From Thermobaculum sp. (GTDB lineage: Bacteria; Chloroflexota; Chloroflexia; Thermobaculales; Thermobaculaceae), in contig JADDPA010000171.1 in NCBI GenBank assembly GCA_016782125.1, positions 1 to 32,564 of the forward strand: a DNA stretch of 32,564 bases. The letters run 5' to 3'. Below the pieces are notes generated by a model. It searched no databases. It had not been told where the DNA came from and was given only the letters and a program-made list of their open reading frames with translations. The stretch's first letter is position 1; each line of letters opens with the position of its first letter. The translations under genes and the position numbers were made by a program. This document shows, in pieces, positions 22,303-32,240 of this stretch.

Positions 22303-24819
22303 TCAGCGCTCCTGAGCCCCTTCGTCCGATAGTGCTGCACGCAGCAATACTTCTGCTTCATCGGCTGTGATGCTGAGGATGGGGGCTATAGCGGCGGGCA
22401 AGCTGGCATCACCGCTGGATTGCCACAGGCGGGCAAGGCTTAGTAGCGTAATCCCTAGGTCGTGCTCATCGTCGAGTTCACTGGTGATCGTTAGATCCTT
22501 GAGGAAATAGTCCAGCGCCTCCTGCCATTGACCCCGCTCCTGGGCGACCCTGCCGAGCTGGTGGTAGATAGTCGCACTGAAGCGCCGCCTCTGCTCTTCG
22601 TCGAATACCGTCAAGCCCGTAAGCAGCAATAGAGCCTTCTGGTAGGACTCCTCGGCGGCTGGGTATCGCTTGAGCAGGAGTTGGTGCTTGGCGATGCCGT
22701 CCAGCACACTTACGAACTCGACGCCCAGCTGTCCGGCTAGTTTGTCCGCCGGATAGTTCTCCAGGCGAGCCACGACCCTCTGCCCCAACTCCAGGCCCCG
22801 GCGATGATCCTGGACCGCGTCAAGGTATGAGGAGAGGGCGTAGTAGGGGTTGAAAATCGAGTCTTGCGCGTCCAGGTCCAAGTCCAGCGCGGTGACCAGG
22901 TTCTCGTACTCCAGCCCCGCCAGCCCCCGCCCTAGCTGCTTCTGTTGGGCATCCTTCGAGCCGAGCATGCTGGACAGCAGCCGGCCGAGGTTGCCGTAGT
23001 GTCGCCGGAAGGCCGTCTCCACGGCGCGGCGCCTCTCGGCTCGCTCCGGCGCCCGCAGGCGACTGCGCAGGAAGTAGGGCAGCGTCGGCTGCAGGTGCAG
23101 GTGCTTATACGCATCGGGCATGGCGCTCAGCAGACCCCAGTTCGCGGCCTCCCGCAGCACCTCAGCCCAGCGCTCGAACGGCAGCTCGGTCAGGACCGGT
23201 TGCTCTCGCAGGCGGTCGGTGTACTGCGGCAAGAACTCGGTGTCGATCACCGAGGTGAAGGGCGCTAGGCAGGTGAGCAGTTCCTGCGCCTCGGGCAACA
23301 GATTGCCGTGCGAGTAGTCGATGCAGCGCAAGATGCTCTCGGTCTTGTCCTGGGCATCGGCGTTGGGATCATCCAACGCCACGTCACCGGCCTGCAGCGC
23401 CGCCAGCACCTCCGCAGGCGTCTGACGCCCCAGGTTCGCCAGCACTACCTCCAGCGCGAGCGGGTAGCCGCCCAGCAGCTCGATCAGGCGCCGTAGGTCC
23501 TGGTCCTCCCGATACCGCGTCGCGCCGTGCCGCTCCAGGATGGCGTCGGCGAGGCCGGACGCCGCCTCGGGGTCGAGGCCGGGCAGGTCGTACGTGTTGT
23601 CACCGAACGTCCCCAGGGCTAACCACTCCTCGCCGCCGCGCGAGCCGAGCAGCACCAGCGTCTTCCCGCCCACCAGGTCCGCCAGGAGCCGGCGCAGCGC
23701 CTCCCGCTCCTCCTCCGGCAGCGTGTGCTGGATGGCCAGCTCCGCGCCGGTGATCGACTCGAGGTTGTCCAGGATCAGCAGGTGGCGCTCGGCTCGCAGC
23801 CGCTGGGCGAGCATCGCCTGCTGCGCGCCGAGGCCGAGCGGTTGGAAGTCCCTCGCGTACTCGACGCGGTCGAGCAACTCCCGCGCGATGGCATCCATGA
23901 TTTGCTGGCGTGTCCACGCCGTCTCGTCGTAGCCGAAGTAGAGCACCTGACCGACGAGGTGGGTCGTCTGCCACCAAGCACCCAGATGGCGCAGCAGGGT
24001 GGTCTTGCCCGCGCCGCCCATCCCCCGCACCAGCAGCAGGTTGCGACGGGCCAGCAGCCGCTTCTCGATCTGCAGGATATCCAGATCGCGGCCCCAGAAG
24101 CCGTAGGTGGGCGCGGGGAAGTGGTAGCGCCTCGCCTCGCGCTCAAAGTAGGCGGCCTGCTCCTCCGGCGTGAACTCTCGCATTGCCAGGCGCGGCTCCT
24201 GGCGCTGGTAGACCACCGGCAGCAGCCAGTCCTCCAGGTCCACAGTCTGGTTGAAGTAGGCGCGCCGCCCCTTGCTGTTGTACAGCTCGAGGCGCGCTCG
24301 CCGGATGGCGGCGGGCAACTCCGCGTCGGCGAGGAGCTGCCCGTACAGCGTCCGCATCAGCAGTTCGGCGGCGCTGACGGTCACCGAGTAGCCCATCGCC
24401 AGTACCGTCTGCGTCCCGGCCTGCATCAGCCTGCTGCCCAGGCTGGTCTCGGTGGCACCCACCTGCTTGCCCGACTGGCACGCGTTGAGTATCGCGATCG
24501 GCACCTGGTGCGTGACGAGCAGGTCGGCCAGCTCTCCCGCCTCCACAAGGTGGGCCCGCGCGTCCCGCTCGCCCTCGAGTAAGAGGAACCTCTTGCGGCC
24601 GTCGTACCGCTGGAGGTCCTCGCGGCCGAAGCGGGCCTGGTACGTGTAGCGGTCGCTCTCGGCTCCAGCCTGCAACTCATCGAAGGCGAGGAGGGCGCCA
24701 TGCACGTCGAAGTGGACCACGTGGTAGTAGCCGGCCCCCTGCTGGTCCCTGACCCGCTCGAGGTGGTCCAGAAGCGCCTGGTACGTGCCGGGGCGGAGCA
24801 GCTCGACGCGTACGCGCAC
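22303..24819 (-). CDS. CHAT protease-STAND ATPase-helical repeat protein, surviving reading frame
   Basis: The intact 838-codon frame encodes most of a CHAT (caspase-like) peptidase, a STAND/NB-ARC-type NTPase and a helical repeat region. The CHAT dyad is present: HFDVHG (36-41, His40) and LNACQSG (111-117, Cys114). The NTPase shows Walker A GMGGAGKTT (266-274), Walker B LLILD (347-351), LLGSR (390-394) and the GYPLALE (451-457) motif before the winged-helix region. The C-terminal third (about 600-838) is a series of TPR-like helix pairs, with ALLLLTGL and WQEALDYFLKDL. Such proteins are thought to be switch-like conflict or cell-death proteases triggered by NTP-driven assembly. GTG 24819 is merely the first start in this frame; it truncates the first CHAT strand, so it is unlikely to be the native start (see the pseudogene entry). 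Confidence 0.75.
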   Translation of the reverse strand: MRVRVELLRPGTYQALLDHLERVRDQQGAGYYHVVHFDVHGALLAFDELQAGAESDRYTYQARFGREDLQRYDGRKRFLLLEGERDARAHLVEAGELADLLVTHQVPIAILNACQSGKQVGATETSLGSRLMQAGTQTVLAMGYSVTVSAAELLMRTLYGQLLADAELPAAIRRARLELYNSKGRRAYFNQTVDLEDWLLPVVYQRQEPRLAMREFTPEEQAAYFEREARRYHFPAPTYGFWGRDLDILQIEKRLLARRNLLLVRGMGGAGKTTLLRHLGAWWQTTHLVGQVLYFGYDETAWTRQQIMDAIARELLDRVEYARDFQPLGLGAQQAMLAQRLRAERHLLILDNLESITGAELAIQHTLPEEEREALRRLLADLVGGKTLVLLGSRGGEEWLALGTFGDNTYDLPGLDPEAASGLADAILERHGATRYREDQDLRRLIELLGGYPLALEVVLANLGRQTPAEVLAALQAGDVALDDPNADAQDKTESILRCIDYSHGNLLPEAQELLTCLAPFTSVIDTEFLPQYTDRLREQPVLTELPFERWAEVLREAANWGLLSAMPDAYKHLHLQPTLPYFLRSRLRAPERAERRRAVETAFRRHYGNLGRLLSSMLGSKDAQQKQLGRGLAGLEYENLVTALDLDLDAQDSIFNPYYALSSYLDAVQDHRRGLELGQRVVARLENYPADKLAGQLGVEFVSVLDGIAKHQLLLKRYPAAEESYQKALLLLTGLTVFDEEQRRRFSATIYHQLGRVAQERGQWQEALDYFLKDLTITSELDDEHDLGITLLSLARLWQSSGDASLPAAIAPILSITADEAEVLLRAALSDEGAQER

Positions 24820-26000: not shown

Positions 26001-27176
26001 TTACTCACCGCGCGCGGTGACCACATCGTTTCTAGCCGCCCACAGGGTCAGATCCTGCTTCTGTATGGCGGCGGCCATGAGGTCCGGGAAGAGGTCGGGC
26101 GTGCAGGCAAACGTCGGTACGCCGATGCTTGCGAGCGCGGCAGCGTTCGCATGGTCGTACGAGGGCGCGCCCTGATCAGAGAGCGCCAGGAGACAAATCA
26201 CCTGGACCCCGCTGCCCACGAGATCCGCGGCGCGCTTGAGCATACCCTGCGCATTTCCACCTTCGTACAGATCCGTGATCAACACGAGCACCGTATCGGC
26301 TGGTCGGGTGATCAATTCCTGACAGTATGCGAGCGCACGGTTGATATCCGTACCGCCGCCAAGCTGTGCGCCGAACAGCAGATCGACCGGATCGTGCAGG
26401 TCCTCCGTGAGGTCGGCAACCGCGGTGTCGAAGACGACCATGCGGGTGCTAACAGCACGGATCGACGCGAGCACCGCGCCGAAGATGCCTGAGTACACGA
26501 CGGAGGTAGCCATCGAGCCGCTCTGATCCACGCAGAGCACGATGTCGCGCAGGCTGGATTGTCGACGACGGTGCCCGTGGCCGATCAGCCGCTCGGCTAT
26601 TATGGTGCCCTGGTCCGGCACGTAGTGTTGGAGGTTTGCCCGGATTGTTCGGTCCCAATTGATCTCGTTGGGACGTGGGCGGTAGGAGCGCGTTGCCCGG
26701 TTCAGGCTGCCGCGCACGCTTTCGACCATCCGGTGCGCGAGCTTGCTCTCCACCTCCTCGACGACGGTGCGCACCACCTGCCGAGCGGTTTCCTTTGTCC
26801 GTTCCGGTATCACGCGACTGAGGGTAAGCAGGTTCGCGACGAGTTGAACGTCTGGTTCCACCACCTCAAGCATCTCGGGCTCGAGGAGCATCTGCCGCAG
26901 GTTGAGCCGCTCCAGTGCATCCTGCTGCATTACGCGAACCGTGCTCGATGGGAAGTACGTCCGAATATCGCCGAGCCAGCGTGCCACGCGGGGCGAGGAC
27001 GCTCCGAGGCTGCCTGGTCCCTGTTCACCACCATACAGCGCCTCGAGTACCCGGTCCATCCCAAGGTCTCCGCCCTCCAAGTCGGGCACACCGAGGCTCT
27101 CGCCTGCTTCCCCACCAAGCACGAGCCGCCAGCGCCTGAGCCTTTCCGCCTGCTGCGTGGTCTCCTCATCAATCAT
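26001..27176 (-). CDS. vWA domain protein of the SWIM/DUF5691/AAA/DUF5682 cassette
   Basis: This 391-residue protein has a helical N-terminal half (about 1-205) and a C-terminal von Willebrand A domain with a complete MIDAS: DQSGS (217-221), Thr276 in LGGGTDINRAL and Asp302 in ITDLYEGG. No signal peptide or membrane helix is visible, so it is cytosolic. It is the last gene of the cassette: ATG 27176 overlaps the DUF5682 stop by eight bases, with GGGAG upstream. An intact MIDAS suggests metal-dependent binding of a partner. MoxR-type ATPases commonly work with such vWA proteins (for example NorQ/NorD, CbbQ/CbbO, RavA/ViaA), so I infer it is the adaptor for the ATPase two genes upstream. The client is unknown. 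Confidence 0.88.
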   Translation of the reverse strand: MIDEETTQQAERLRRWRLVLGGEAGESLGVPDLEGGDLGMDRVLEALYGGEQGPGSLGASSPRVARWLGDIRTYFPSSTVRVMQQDALERLNLRQMLLEPEMLEVVEPDVQLVANLLTLSRVIPERTKETARQVVRTVVEEVESKLAHRMVESVRGSLNRATRSYRPRPNEINWDRTIRANLQHYVPDQGTIIAERLIGHGHRRRQSSLRDIVLCVDQSGSMATSVVYSGIFGAVLASIRAVSTRMVVFDTAVADLTEDLHDPVDLLFGAQLGGGTDINRALAYCQELITRPADTVLVLITDLYEGGNAQGMLKRAADLVGSGVQVICLLALSDQGAPSYDHANAAALASIGVPTFACTPDLFPDLMAAAIQKQDLTLWAARNDVVTARGE

Positions 27177-29430
27177 GCAGTGGTACTCCCAGTATCTGGG
27201 CGAGCACGGGCAGCACGAGGTCCGCCCGCTCCCGATCCACATCCTCCCCGTTCGGGGTACTTGCCTTATTCAGCGCGTGGTCCATCCCCAGGTGCCGCAC
27301 TTTCTCTCCCATCTTGCGCCTCTCGGGTGCTTGGAAGCCGGAGAACGCCCGCCGCAGCAGCGGCAGCATCTCGGTGAACGTCTCCAAGGGCAGACCCCGC
27401 ATCCATGCATCGAGCGCCCGCCACAGTCCGTCCTGATGGAGCAACAGGAGTCCGCTGCCGCGCAGCACACCCTGAACCCACGCCGCAGCCTGTGCGGGCG
27501 GCGTCACGGGTGTGAGCACCAGTCCCGCCAGCCGCTGCAACTCCCCGGCATTCAGCGCCCCACCCTCCAGCAGGAGGCGGCAGGCCCAGCCCCGAAGGAG
27601 ACCGTGTGCTCCCTCTGCGTGGGCGATGACCGTGAGCGTGGTGGTCCACGACTCGCGCTGCTCTGCCCGGTCGAGGAGCACGACACTATCCTGCACGGCC
27701 GCGATCCCCTCCGCCAGTTTCCCGGCCGCTTCGTCGTCCACGTTCCGGCACATGAGGGGCAGACCGACCAGTGCGCGCTCGAAGAGCGCGGCGATCACGG
27801 GATCCACCTGCGTCGCGCCAGAGCCGCGCACGTCGCCGTACCGGGCAACCCGAGCGAGCGGCGGGAGGGCGTTCATCAGGTGCAATACGTCCGCACTCAC
27901 CGCAGCCAGGTCCCGCACGCGCGCCAGGACGTGATCCGTCGCCGGCTGGAGCCCACCCAGCATTGTGGCGTCGAGCAGGGCGGTCAGCACAGGTAGGTCC
28001 GGCGCGCGGTTCGCGTCGTCGATAGCGCGTGCCGTCGCCGCGGTCTCGACGCTGTTCCCCCACACGCTCGCCTCGATCAAGGCTACCGCGAACTCCGGCT
28101 GCCACTGCAACTGCCACAGTTCATGGAAGGTGCTCACCTTGCCCGCGGCGCGCTCCGGCTGCCCCCAGGATATTCCCAGCCGGCGAAGCCGATGTAGCAG
28201 CCTGCTCCGGGCAAGGTCGTTATCGCGTCTGAGATCCAGGTCAAGTGGCTTTAGCTCGGCGGAGGCCTTCAGTCGCAGCGAGCGCTGCAAGGCGGCAAGG
28301 TCGCGCGCGAGCGGGACCGTTGGTGTGTCGTCCGGAACCTCGCCCAGCCGCTCGCCGATCTCGAGCTTCTCACGAATCAACGCCATCGGCGCCGGGTCGC
28401 CGCCGCACAAGACTGTCTGAATCGCCTCGTGCAGCTCAGCCAGTCCCGGCATCGGGAGTGTCCGCATCGCCGCCAGTGCATCCCCAAGCCGCACCGCCTC
28501 GATCACGTTCGCGGAGGACGCGTCCAGGTCTTCGCCTCGGAGCAGGCGCGCACTGTGAGCCACCCAGCGTGTGGCGATATGATCCTGAGAACTCCAGAGG
28601 TGCTCGTACCAGCCGGGTGCCGCAATGCCCGCGCCGTATCCCGTGCGGTAGGAAAGACGCGAGTTCGTCCAGGGCACCCACGTCGCTTCTACCTTGCCCT
28701 TCTTCAGTCCCGTCAGCAACTTCGCGTCCGCGCCGGCCGTGCTGCCGACGATTGCGGGCGCATGCCACGCGCCGCAGACGACCGCGATCCGGCCATGACC
28801 CTCAGCCTGCGCCTCGCGGACGGTGCGCCGCATCCACGCCTCCCGCTGTGCCTCCCTGCCCTCCGGCTTCGGGGCGTGCGCACGGAGTTCCGTCATCGCT
28901 TCCAGTATCGCCTCGAAGAGACCCACGGCGTCGCGCCGTTGCTCGATCTGGTGCTCCCACCACAACTCGCGGTCCGTGTAGCCTGCCGAAAGCGCAAGCT
29001 GCCCGACTGGATCCTCCTCGATCGTCGGTTGTGTGTCGGCGGGCTGCTCCTCCGTCGGGGCGTCTGAATCGGGTGGCACATCCGCCGAGGTCTGTGGTTC
29101 CTCGTTCCTTCGCTGTCCGAGCTGGTACGCCTGAGGCAGATCGATGAACCGAGCGGGAATGTCGCGGGTGAGTGCGTAGGATAGCGCCTGCCACTCGGGG
29201 GAGTAGTGCACGAAGGGGTAGTACACGGCGTCCTGGGGGCTGTCCGGCGCGTACACCAGCAGCGCAACCGGTGGCGTCATACCGGGCCGGATGAGCGCCG
29301 GTAAGACCGCGTGCGCATCGGGTGGCCCCTCGACCAGCACTATGTCCGGTTCGAGCGTGCAGAGCGCGTCGCGTAGAGAACGCGCGCACCCCGGCCCGTG
29401 GTGCCGGATGCCGAAGATGTGCACCGTCAC
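27169..29430 (-). CDS. DUF5682 family protein, TraB/Tiki-like N-terminus
   Basis: This 753-residue protein belongs to DUF5682, which has no known function. The N-terminal quarter shows GIRHHGPGCARSL (7-19), PDIVLVEGPPDA (28-39) and, after an acidic low-complexity insert (about 107-140), RIAVVCGAWHAPAI (214-227). The pairing of an N-terminal GxxH, an early glutamate after a hydrophobic strand and a later GxxH resembles the TraB/GumN/Tiki/EreA hydrolase superfamily; this relation is my inference. The remaining 500 residues look helical. The start GTG 29430 is three bases after the ATPase stop, with GGAGA upstream; the second in-frame GTG at 29424 is possible. The stop overlaps the vWA start. 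No signal peptide or membrane span is seen. Confidence 0.85.
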   Translation of the reverse strand: MTVHIFGIRHHGPGCARSLRDALCTLEPDIVLVEGPPDAHAVLPALIRPGMTPPVALLVYAPDSPQDAVYYPFVHYSPEWQALSYALTRDIPARFIDLPQAYQLGQRRNEEPQTSADVPPDSDAPTEEQPADTQPTIEEDPVGQLALSAGYTDRELWWEHQIEQRRDAVGLFEAILEAMTELRAHAPKPEGREAQREAWMRRTVREAQAEGHGRIAVVCGAWHAPAIVGSTAGADAKLLTGLKKGKVEATWVPWTNSRLSYRTGYGAGIAAPGWYEHLWSSQDHIATRWVAHSARLLRGEDLDASSANVIEAVRLGDALAAMRTLPMPGLAELHEAIQTVLCGGDPAPMALIREKLEIGERLGEVPDDTPTVPLARDLAALQRSLRLKASAELKPLDLDLRRDNDLARSRLLHRLRRLGISWGQPERAAGKVSTFHELWQLQWQPEFAVALIEASVWGNSVETAATARAIDDANRAPDLPVLTALLDATMLGGLQPATDHVLARVRDLAAVSADVLHLMNALPPLARVARYGDVRGSGATQVDPVIAALFERALVGLPLMCRNVDDEAAGKLAEGIAAVQDSVVLLDRAEQRESWTTTLTVIAHAEGAHGLLRGWACRLLLEGGALNAGELQRLAGLVLTPVTPPAQAAAWVQGVLRGSGLLLLHQDGLWRALDAWMRGLPLETFTEMLPLLRRAFSGFQAPERRKMGEKVRHLGMDHALNKASTPNGEDVDRERADLVLPVLAQILGVPLHD

Positions 29431-29433
29431 CTG

Positions 29434-30558
29434 CTACAGCATCTCCTGACAAGCGCGGTACAGGCCCTTCCAGTCCCGCCGCTCCCTGACCACGGTCTGA
29501 AGATACTCCAGCCACACCAGACGATCTTGTACCGGGTCCTTGATTATCGCGCCGGTGAGTCCCGCCGCGATGTCGTTCGCGCGCACGGAACCGTCGCCGT
29601 AGTACGCCGCGGTAGAGAGGCCGCTCGTCATCACGGATATCGCCTCCGCTGGCGAGAGCGTGCCGCTCGGTGACTTCAGCTTCGTCTTGCCATCAACGGT
29701 TACGCCGTCACGAAGCTCCCGAAAGATCGTGACAACGCGCCGGATCTCTTCGAGCGCGGGCTTCTCGGCGGGCAGTTCCAGCGCACGACCCAGGCTCACG
29801 ACGCGCTGGTCGACGATCTGGACCTCTTCTTCGAGGCTTTCGGGCACCGGCAGGACCACGGTGTTGAAGCGGCGCATCAGGGCGCTGGACAGCTCGTTCA
29901 CGCCTTTGTCGCGGTTATTCGCGGTCGCGATCACGTTGAAGCCTTTGCGCGCCTGCACCTCGGTGCTCAGCTCCGGAACGGAAAGCGTCTTCTCGGACAA
30001 AATGGTAATGAGCGTGTCCTGCACCTCCGCGGGCATGCGGGTCATCTCCTCGATCCGTACGAGCTTGCCCGTCTCCATGGCGCGCATCATCGGGCTCACG
30101 ACGAGTGCGGCGGCACTCGGTCCGTCCGCGAGCAGCCGTGCATAGTTCCAACCGTAGCGCAGGGCGGTTTCGTCCGTGCCCGCGGTACCCTGGATCAGGA
30201 GGGTTGAGTCACCCGAGATCGCCGCCGCGAGGTGCTCGCTCACCCAGCTCTTGGCGGTGCCCGGGACACCGTACAACAGGAGTGCTCGGTCGGTGGCGAG
30301 CGTGGCGACCGCGATCTCGACGGTGCGCGCGTTGCCGATGTACTTCGGGCGCACCTCAAAGCCGCTCCGCAGCTTGCCACCGAGCAGATAGGTGCGCACC
30401 GCCCATGGCGAGAGCTGCCAGTTGGGAGGTCGCTGTCGGTGGTCGTCGCGAGCGAGCTGTTCCAGCTCCTCCGCATACTCGTGCTCGGCGTGCCGTCGGA
30501 GCACTACGCCCTCTGGGCCGGTGCCCGTGCTGTGACCGTTGCCCGCTTGGATACTCAC
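29434..30558 (-). CDS. MoxR-like AAA+ ATPase of the cassette
   Basis: This 374-residue AAA+ protein has Walker A YGVPGTAKS (96-104), a Walker B region KLVRIEEM (165-172), sensor 1 VIATANNRD (209-217) and an arginine-finger-like ALMRRF (226-231). Walker B reads IEE rather than the usual hhDE, so the magnesium-coordinating Asp is Glu here. The N-terminal 70 residues (WQLSPWAVRTYLLGGK) are a family-specific extension. GTG 30558 overlaps the DUF5691 stop as GTGA, with GAGGAGA upstream. As a MoxR-like ATPase next to a vWA protein it is probably the energy-using remodeller of this cassette. It differs from the MoxR at 6186-7121 in length and motifs, so the two are not recent duplicates. Confidence 0.9.
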   Translation of the reverse strand: MSIQAGNGHSTGTGPEGVVLRRHAEHEYAEELEQLARDDHRQRPPNWQLSPWAVRTYLLGGKLRSGFEVRPKYIGNARTVEIAVATLATDRALLLYGVPGTAKSWVSEHLAAAISGDSTLLIQGTAGTDETALRYGWNYARLLADGPSAAALVVSPMMRAMETGKLVRIEEMTRMPAEVQDTLITILSEKTLSVPELSTEVQARKGFNVIATANNRDKGVNELSSALMRRFNTVVLPVPESLEEEVQIVDQRVVSLGRALELPAEKPALEEIRRVVTIFRELRDGVTVDGKTKLKSPSGTLSPAEAISVMTSGLSTAAYYGDGSVRANDIAAGLTGAIIKDPVQDRLVWLEYLQTVVRERRDWKGLYRACQEML

Positions 30559-32240
30559 GCGCGTATCTCCTCTGCTATCTGCTTTCGTAACCGGATGATA
30601 AACTGGAAGGTCCCGATCTCAGTGTGCCACTGCTGCCACAACCAGTCGTCCGTTTCGCGAAGGTTCATTGGCTCCAGTGCCTGATCGAAGCAAGAGGGTG
30701 GCAGGGCAAAAGCGGCTACGGGTATGGTGCCCATCCACGAGCCGGGAGACAGCGACTTCGCTCCCCGCGCACCGGCGAGGTACTTGCGTAACGACCGGAG
30801 GTAGGTTTCGCCGAGGTCCACACTCCAGGGCTGCCTAACCCGTACCAGCCCCTGCGAACAGGCTCGGCTCATAGAGTCGATACTGACCTCGGGACCCCTA
30901 GCTGTCTGTTGGACGGTGGGTTTCCCGCTCGCAGCGACCAGTTCTTGGCGCAGCCGAGGCTCCAGCTGGTCCGCCGACATATGGGTCAGTACCAGTTCGA
31001 GCGACGTCCATGCGAGCGAGCGGTCTCCAGCATCCTTACCCGTATCGTACTGGCTCCGAAGACTCTCCCACAGGGCCGCAGCCCACGCGTCGCTGGCGTC
31101 CAGCGAGAGAGCGTGTGCCCACCCTTCAAGCACGACCGCGCCCCAATCGGGGTTGCCTGCGGCAGCCTGGACTAGATCCTTGGGATCAGCACCAAGCGAA
31201 TCGTGCCAGTGACTCAGCGGTACGAGGCTCAGGAGTTGCCGGGTCCACCAAGCCCGCTCGCCGAGCCCCTGCGGCGGTTTCGCCACGATGCCATCTCGGA
31301 TCCAGTCGTTCGGCAGCGATTCCGGCGGCAGAACGTGGAGCGAGCCGCGCTGACCACCTCGGCCGAGACTACTCGCGAGCCTTCGCAATCCCCACGGCTG
31401 TTCCTTTGGTGCCTCATAGCGGAGCACAGCGCCAGCGCGCTCCCGCATTCTCAGGGAGAGGGCGGAATCTGGTAAGCGCCCCAGGAGGCCAGCCGCACGG
31501 GTGCGGACGGTCGTGCTGCGATCGTTCAGAGTATCCTCTAACAGTGGCTCATCCGCTTGCGAGAGACCTTCGGACAGGATGTCGAGCATCTCACGGCGAA
31601 ACTCTGCCTTCTCGCCCCGCCAGGCGGAAGCTATCCAGGCGCGCGCTTGCTCGGGTGCTTCGGCCCGCACGCGGCGCAGCGCTGTGAGCCGTTGTGGGAG
31701 AGTGCCGTCCTCCCATCTGGCCTGGTGGACCTCGAGTCCGGCGGTGGCATCCGGTACTAGGTGATCCTGGACCCACCGCCATTCCGGATTCTGCGCGGCG
31801 AGCCAGACGCCTCGCTGCCCGAGCACCGGCAGGAGTGCGGAGCGCAGCGCCGCCCCGCGAAGTGAGAGCAAAGCGGGCAGCAACTCAAACGGTACCCGCA
31901 TACTTGCCAGGCGCAGGCGTTCCAGCGCCTCCAGCAGCAGGGCGTCACCCTTCTGACTTAGGAGCTGGCCGAGCAGATCTGCCGCGCGGGACGAGCAGGT
32001 GGATAGGCGTTCGGGCGGTGCGGGCACCGCCTGTGGAAGGGCGCTTGGGCGAAGTCCCGCCTTCCGGTACACCGCACGCGCGCCGGCCGCGAGCAGGAGC
32101 GCCCGCTCCGGCTCGACGTCAATCAGTTTCTCGATCAGCTCGTCGAGCGTCGTGCCGGTTCGGACCGGGCCACTCGCCGCCCGTGACGTGCCAGTGAGGG
32201 CGACACTCAGGAGAGTGTCGCCGATTTCTGACCGCATCAT
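30555..32240 (-). CDS. DUF5691 family protein
   Basis: This 561-residue protein fits DUF5691, a family without known function that accompanies SWIM, MoxR-like ATPase, DUF5682 and vWA genes in other bacteria. The sequence is rich in helical repeats resembling HEAT/ARM units, for example PFELLPALLSLRGAALRSAL, DDLNDRSTTVRTRAAGLLGRL-like segments around residue 240, and RMRERAGAVLRY. The N-terminus (SEIGDTLLSVALTGTSRA) and an ERALLLAAGARAVYRKAG segment are family-like. ATG 32240 overlaps the SWIM stop as ATGA; the next codon is also ATG. No enzymatic motif is evident. I infer a scaffold or client-recognition role. The family name is from recognition of context and sequence, not a search. Confidence 0.8.
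   Translation of the reverse strand: MMRSEIGDTLLSVALTGTSRAASGPVRTGTTLDELIEKLIDVEPERALLLAAGARAVYRKAGLRPSALPQAVPAPPERLSTCSSRAADLLGQLLSQKGDALLLEALERLRLASMRVPFELLPALLSLRGAALRSALLPVLGQRGVWLAAQNPEWRWVQDHLVPDATAGLEVHQARWEDGTLPQRLTALRRVRAEAPEQARAWIASAWRGEKAEFRREMLDILSEGLSQADEPLLEDTLNDRSTTVRTRAAGLLGRLPDSALSLRMRERAGAVLRYEAPKEQPWGLRRLASSLGRGGQRGSLHVLPPESLPNDWIRDGIVAKPPQGLGERAWWTRQLLSLVPLSHWHDSLGADPKDLVQAAAGNPDWGAVVLEGWAHALSLDASDAWAAALWESLRSQYDTGKDAGDRSLAWTSLELVLTHMSADQLEPRLRQELVAASGKPTVQQTARGPEVSIDSMSRACSQGLVRVRQPWSVDLGETYLRSLRKYLAGARGAKSLSPGSWMGTIPVAAFALPPSCFDQALEPMNLRETDDWLWQQWHTEIGTFQFIIRLRKQIAEEIRA

Follow-up and report, generated by a model that had tools for sequence, protein, structure and literature searches.

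A DUF5682 (YehM family) protein encoded between a MoxR ATPase and a VWA protein has a TraB/Tiki-like N-terminal domain

Not every protein of the superfamily that unites Tiki, PrgY and the erythromycin esterases hydrolyses a substrate, ChaN and PMT being exceptions, and to our knowledge ChaN binds haem and is not known as an enzyme. We also know of no earlier tie between the TraB fold and AAA+ motors. A well studied protease of the Tiki superfamily requires two histidines, two glutamates and a nearby arginine for its activity (PMC6254334). The MoxR family of AAA+ ATPases, of which YehL is a recognised subfamily, is believed to help particular protein complexes to mature or become active (PMC3893208). 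For the NorQ/NorD pair it has been proposed that the VWA protein sits inside the pore of the ring, where its MIDAS binds the client (PMC9976466).

The window analysed here is a whole stretch of 32,564 nucleotides from Thermobaculum sp. (GCA_016782125.1, contig JADDPA010000171.1, positions 1 to 32,564, forward strand), which encodes the four-gene cassette listed in Table 1. The gene order DUF5691-MoxR-DUF5682-VWA is conserved, and the homologous operon of E. coli K-12 is yehL-yehM-yehP-yehQ. The VWA gene begins within the last 8 nt of the DUF5682 gene, the DUF5691 gene runs 4 nt into the beginning of MoxR, and 3 bases separate DUF5682 from MoxR; these overlaps and short gaps suggest that the genes are co-translated. 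The MIDAS of the VWA protein is intact (DQSGS, GGTD, LITD), and the ATPase has the Walker A sequence GVPGTAKS and the Walker B sequence RIEE. Across 80 loci a MoxR gene was found near DUF5682 in 76, a VWA gene in 70 and a DUF5691 gene in 68, many of the absences coinciding with contig ends. We consider it very probable that the DUF5682 protein belongs to the MoxR/VWA machine.

Table 1. Coordinates of the cassette genes and of the features of the DUF5682 protein in the window
Feature	Position	Strand	Evidence
VWA protein, CoxE-like, YehP homologue (36%)	26001..27176	(-)	PF05762, E 1.2e-51
DUF5682 protein (E. coli YehM family)	27169..29430	(-)	753 aa, GTG start; PF18934, E 5.3e-260; 88 homologues
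HEAT-like all-helical C-terminal region, residues 256-753	27172..28665	(-)	AF2/DSSP; weak Foldseek matches
TraB/Tiki-superfamily domain, residues 1 to ~255	28666..29430	(-)	HHalign 95-98% to TraB/PrgY; AF2; Foldseek
Motif 4, G220-A-W-H223 (second GxxH)	28762..28773	(-)	G220, H223 88/88; pair with TraB G208, H211
Arg motif, R196-E-A-W-M200 (TraB R-D-x-x-M)	28831..28845	(-)	R196, E197, M200 88/88; TraB R183, D184, M187
Acidic, proline-rich disordered insert, residues 107-140	29011..29112	(-)	Composition; pLDDT < 50 at 112-131
D97 (RFIDLP), Asp of TraB/PrgY 'DR.I..T' motif	29140..29142	(-)	88/88; pairs with TraB D111
E34, predicted catalytic/metal Glu directly after strand 2	29329..29331	(-)	88/88; pairs with TraB E36
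Motif 1, G7-I-R-H10 (GxxH, end of strand 1)	29401..29412	(-)	H10 88/88, G7 83/88; pairs with TraB G9..H12
MoxR-type AAA+ ATPase, YehL subfamily (40%)	29434..30558	(-)	PF07728, E 1.6e-35
DUF5691 protein	30555..32240	(-)	PF18944, E 4.3e-110

Several further genes were seen around these operons. Several of the loci examined have SWIM zinc-finger genes upstream, and there is none within this contig. In Runella defluvii (L080:2918-5944 and L080:8268-11237) the operon also encodes two YehI-like (DUF4132) proteins, one on either side of DUF5682; E. coli yehI also sits just upstream of yehLMPQ, and YehI may be a further component of the system. Adjoining the Thermobaculum cassette is a gene for a CHAT-NTPase (NACHT/NB-ARC-like)-TPR protein (22303-24819, minus strand), the reading frame of which opens at profile position 124 of 289, within the CHAT domain, so that a frameshift or a loss may have affected its 5' part.

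A sequence-only reading of this DNA had placed three motifs in the DUF5682 protein, GIRH at residues 7-10, PDIVLVEGPPD with E34 at 28-38 and GAWH at 220-223, and translation of the open reading frame confirmed their positions. It had also described an acidic and proline-rich insert at about residues 107-140; these 34 residues contain 11 Asp or Glu and 6 Pro, and disorder is predicted there. The range noted at that time, 28750-29430, corresponds to codons 1-227, and the TraB-like domain extends slightly further. The C-terminal two thirds of the protein make up a separate all-helical region. Our best reading of DUF5682/YehM is that of a two-part cytoplasmic protein, in which a TraB/PrgY-type domain is joined to a HEAT-like helical scaffold.

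To compare the N-terminal domain with the superfamily, a profile of DUF5682 residues 1-300 was aligned by HHalign with reference sets of GumN-type TraB, ChaN, erythromycin-esterase-like and COG1916-type TraB/PrgY proteins collected from bacterial genomes and plasmids. The COG1916-type TraB/PrgY profile matched at 95.3% (E 2.3e-8) in local and 97.6% (E 1.4e-11) in global alignment, spanning the whole domain (212-222 columns) with the motifs in register. As pairwise HHalign E-values lack database calibration, shuffled and unrelated controls were run: block-shuffled TraB profiles reached a mean score of 28.6 and a maximum of 40.1, compared with the 64.4 observed for DUF5682, and profiles of VWA, MoxR and DUF5691 proteins from the same operons gave 0.1-0.3% and reversed profiles 0.2-0.5%. 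A narrow DUF5682 profile had given only 2% against GumN-type TraB, and the match rose to 95% once divergent DUF5682 members and COG1916-type TraB members were included.

The aligned pairs between DUF5682 and TraB are G7-G, H10-H, E34-E, D97-D, R196-R, E197-D, M200-M, G220-G and H223-H. Thus beyond the motifs already noted three more signature residues, D97, R196 and M200, match TraB. Among 19 TraB sequences sampled the invariant residues H, E, R, G and H pair with H10, E34, R196, G220 and H223, and this five-residue pairing recurred in every TraB alignment tried. R196 lies 27 residues before H223, the expectation in the superfamily for a conserved basic residue being about 25-29 (PMC6254334).

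Conservation was assessed in 88 aligned homologues, comprising 80 relatives found by scanning bacterial and archaeal genomes, K-12 YehM and divergent Chloroflexota proteins from a family search; the scan of 80 covered Chloroflexota, Planctomycetota, Cyanobacteria, Pseudomonadota, Verrucomicrobiota, Bacteroidota and other phyla. H10, H11, E34, S77, E79, D97, R196, E197, M200, G220 and H223 were identical in all 88, which led us to dismiss a chance origin of the motifs, and all are kept by YehM, which is only 26% identical to the query. Position 7 is proline in five of the 88, indicating that the glycine of the first 'GxxH' is not essential, and W222 is variable. In a 67-sequence alignment invariant positions were denser at the N-terminus, with 27 among the 255 residues of the N-domain versus 20 among the remaining 498. 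Two further observations were made on individual relatives. Three divergent 900-aa proteins from the same class as the source genome (L145, L146 and L147) have 'PVAHH' in place of 'GIRHH' and retain the H, E, D, R-E-x-x-M and G-x-x-H residues. In a 95% identical relative (L002:6001-9255) the DUF5682 frame runs past residue 649 into non-matching sequence, with no VWA gene after it, which suggests a frameshift or assembly error.

AlphaFold2 predicted the full-length protein with good confidence (pLDDT 89, pTM 0.81). When this model was compared with the PDB using Foldseek, the result was dominated by the helical C-terminal region, with weak matches of the importin/cohesin helical-repeat type, and for this reason the N-domain was modelled alone (pLDDT 87.5, pTM 0.86). 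Its predicted fold is alpha/beta, with the strand order expected for the TraB/Tiki superfamily. Strands are predicted at residues 2-8, 30-33, 93-95 and 214-220, and H10, E34, D97 and H223 each fall a few residues after one of them, a placing that would bring all four to one edge if the sheet is of the parallel alpha/beta type.

The first PDB match of the N-domain was 7w5z_E (probability 0.77, E 0.037, TM 0.26-0.32), which carries the PDB name 'TraB family protein', and the same protein from other entries appeared at ranks 3 and 16; Tetrahymena complex IV includes a TraB-family subunit (PMC10060162). Among viral proteins, the top match of the full-length model was again a 'TraB family protein' (probability 1.00, E 0.006, TM 0.48 by target length). 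As these scores are modest, with low TM values and E above 0.001 for the top TraB matches, the weight of the fold searches rests on the identity of the top matches. A separate scan of viral contigs for TraB relatives confirmed none.

Motifs of this kind might have arisen by convergence or coincidence, and it is in keeping with such an origin that single sequences and standard libraries (Pfam, NCBIfam, PDB sequences) revealed no TraB similarity: a TraB label for the DUF5682 protein was absent from Pfam, where this held also for divergent members, and from NCBIfam and PADLOC, and neither the single protein nor the DUF5682 profile retrieved anything relevant from the PDB sequences. However, the whole-domain profile match far exceeds the controls, shuffled or unrelated, and TraB ranks first in each of two unbiased fold searches. 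We regard convergence as exceedingly improbable and have rejected it on these grounds. We conclude that the DUF5682 N-domain is almost certainly homologous to the TraB superfamily and that, as judged from sequence, residues 1 to about 255 hold the complete His-Glu-Asp-Arg-His signature.

Within the superfamily the closest branch is TraB/PrgY. The ChaN profile aligned in the same register at 15%, a local score that was equalled by 3 of 60 block shuffles, so that this link is weak, and the erythromycin-esterase-like (Ere) profile gave no signal against DUF5682, leaving that link undetectable by sequence; 3b55, an Ere-family protein, ranks 25 in the N-domain Foldseek list against the PDB. The sequence-only reading had named TraB, Tiki and EreA together: its superfamily assignment was upheld when residues 1-255 were checked by profile and by Foldseek, with the resemblance closest to TraB/PrgY and that to Ere escaping the sequence comparison. 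Two erythromycin-esterase-like (PF05139) genes are present elsewhere in the source genome (G000:C140:437-1492 and G000:C73:4580-5617). With regard to the '2His/2Glu' set of RRSP, DUF5682 has both histidines, the main glutamate and the arginine, and the position of the second glutamate, which in RRSP and ChaN lies two residues ahead of the first histidine, is occupied by I8. Since the second glutamate is missing in the TraB branch too, its absence favours chemistry of the TraB type over that of the Ere type.

The presence of a TraB/Tiki domain with its signature residues kept means that the MoxR ATPase operon probably carries an enzyme. The picture that we favour overall, and consider reasonably likely, is of a cytoplasmic TraB-type hydrolase coupled via its HEAT-like region to a MoxR/VWA remodelling machine; for the hydrolase activity itself the balance tips only slightly in favour. 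By analogy with NorQ/NorD, the MoxR ring and its VWA partner would capture a client by means of the VWA MIDAS and use ATP to remodel it. The helical region of DUF5682 would dock on this machine, and the TraB-like site might then cleave a peptide, ester or lactone bond of the exposed client, with H10 and E34 as a putative water-activating pair and R196 and H223 binding substrate or metal. Hydrolysis, metal dependence, substrate, complex formation and the identity of the client are inferred. More tentatively, YehL, YehM and YehP may form an ATP-driven remodel-and-cut machine, in which the MoxR ring and VWA adaptor hand a folded client over to a TraB-type hydrolase that is mounted on a helical scaffold.

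The main rival to hydrolysis is a role in ligand or metal handling. In this view the TraB fold and ancestry are kept, the site would bind a ligand or a metal much as haem is bound by ChaN, and the operon would serve to insert a cofactor or in maturation, as NorQ/NorD or CoxD/CoxE do. Maturation factors are known among MoxR/VWA pairs (PMC9976466, PMC3893208), the VWA protein of the cassette is CoxE-like, and ChaN has the motifs too, His/Glu/Asp clusters being good metal binders. Against this, the Arg-x-x-x-M motif and D97 fit TraB/PrgY better than ChaN, where Arg is replaced by W and Asp by N, and neither a common client nor a consistent client metalloenzyme emerged from the inserted and neighbouring genes of 15 sampled loci. 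We consider this role rather unlikely.

It is also conceivable that the cassette serves in phage defence or conflict, with the TraB-like domain as its toxic effector. Ternary conflict systems of the MoxR-vWA type are on record (PMC7159879), DUF5682 is patchy in Chloroflexota (25 of 151 genomes) and the CHAT-NTPase-TPR gene adjoins the cassette here. However, no CHAT homologue was found near DUF5682 in related loci, PADLOC recognised none of the four genes in a meaningful way, with weak AAA matches for MoxR and nothing for the other three, and YehM, DUF56xx and TraB are not mentioned in PMC7159879. Moreover, 5303 of 5426 complete E. coli genomes (about 98%) carry yehM, which is nearly always chromosomal, as fits a core function. 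A conflict role therefore appears improbable. In one strain, E. coli HNSQ2209, yehM is interrupted by an IS5-family transposase (NZ_CP137737.1:1867916-1871259).

Returning to the TraB-type hydrolase reading, the TraB/Tiki domain provides the first predicted chemistry for the yehLMPQ operon, the YehL subfamily having no known function, and it brings a widespread family into the superfamily. It also names exact residues for mutation, as the signature residues correspond to H11, E35, D101, R175 and H202 in YehM. The open literature searched held no paper on DUF5682, yehM being named only in passing lists, and we know of no activity for any member of the family. The TraB/Tiki domain carries no label in any of the family libraries tried; the relationship may have been noted elsewhere (Pfam clans, subscription papers).

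Among known proteins, the erythromycin esterase family (PF05139) shares the superfamily fold predicted for DUF5682 but has GExxH with differently arranged surroundings. ChaN (PF04187) shares the aligned GxxH, E and second GxxH, but has GExH, and W/D where DUF5682 has R/E. GumN-type TraB has the five invariants H, E, R, G and H in common with DUF5682, with a weaker profile score (45-61%). TraB/PrgY (PF01963, COG1916 type) is closest: over about 220 residues its GxxH, E, Asp, R-D/E-x-x-M and second GxxH follow one another as in DUF5682 and in register with it, and both families lack a Glu two positions ahead of the first His. Unlike TraB/PrgY, DUF5682 has no evident signal peptide, places the domain at its N-terminus with a disordered acidic insert, continues for about 500 residues of helical repeats and is set in a MoxR/VWA operon. 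NorQ/NorD, CbbQ/CbbO and RavA/ViaA, like the cassette, combine a MoxR ring with a VWA partner bearing a MIDAS, and we know of no TraB-type domain subunit in any of them. The E. coli operon is without DUF5691 and has the SWIM protein YehQ downstream, whereas at many other loci a SWIM gene lies upstream of DUF5691; its MoxR (40%), DUF5682 (26%) and VWA (36%) proteins nevertheless match those of the Thermobaculum cassette in the same order.
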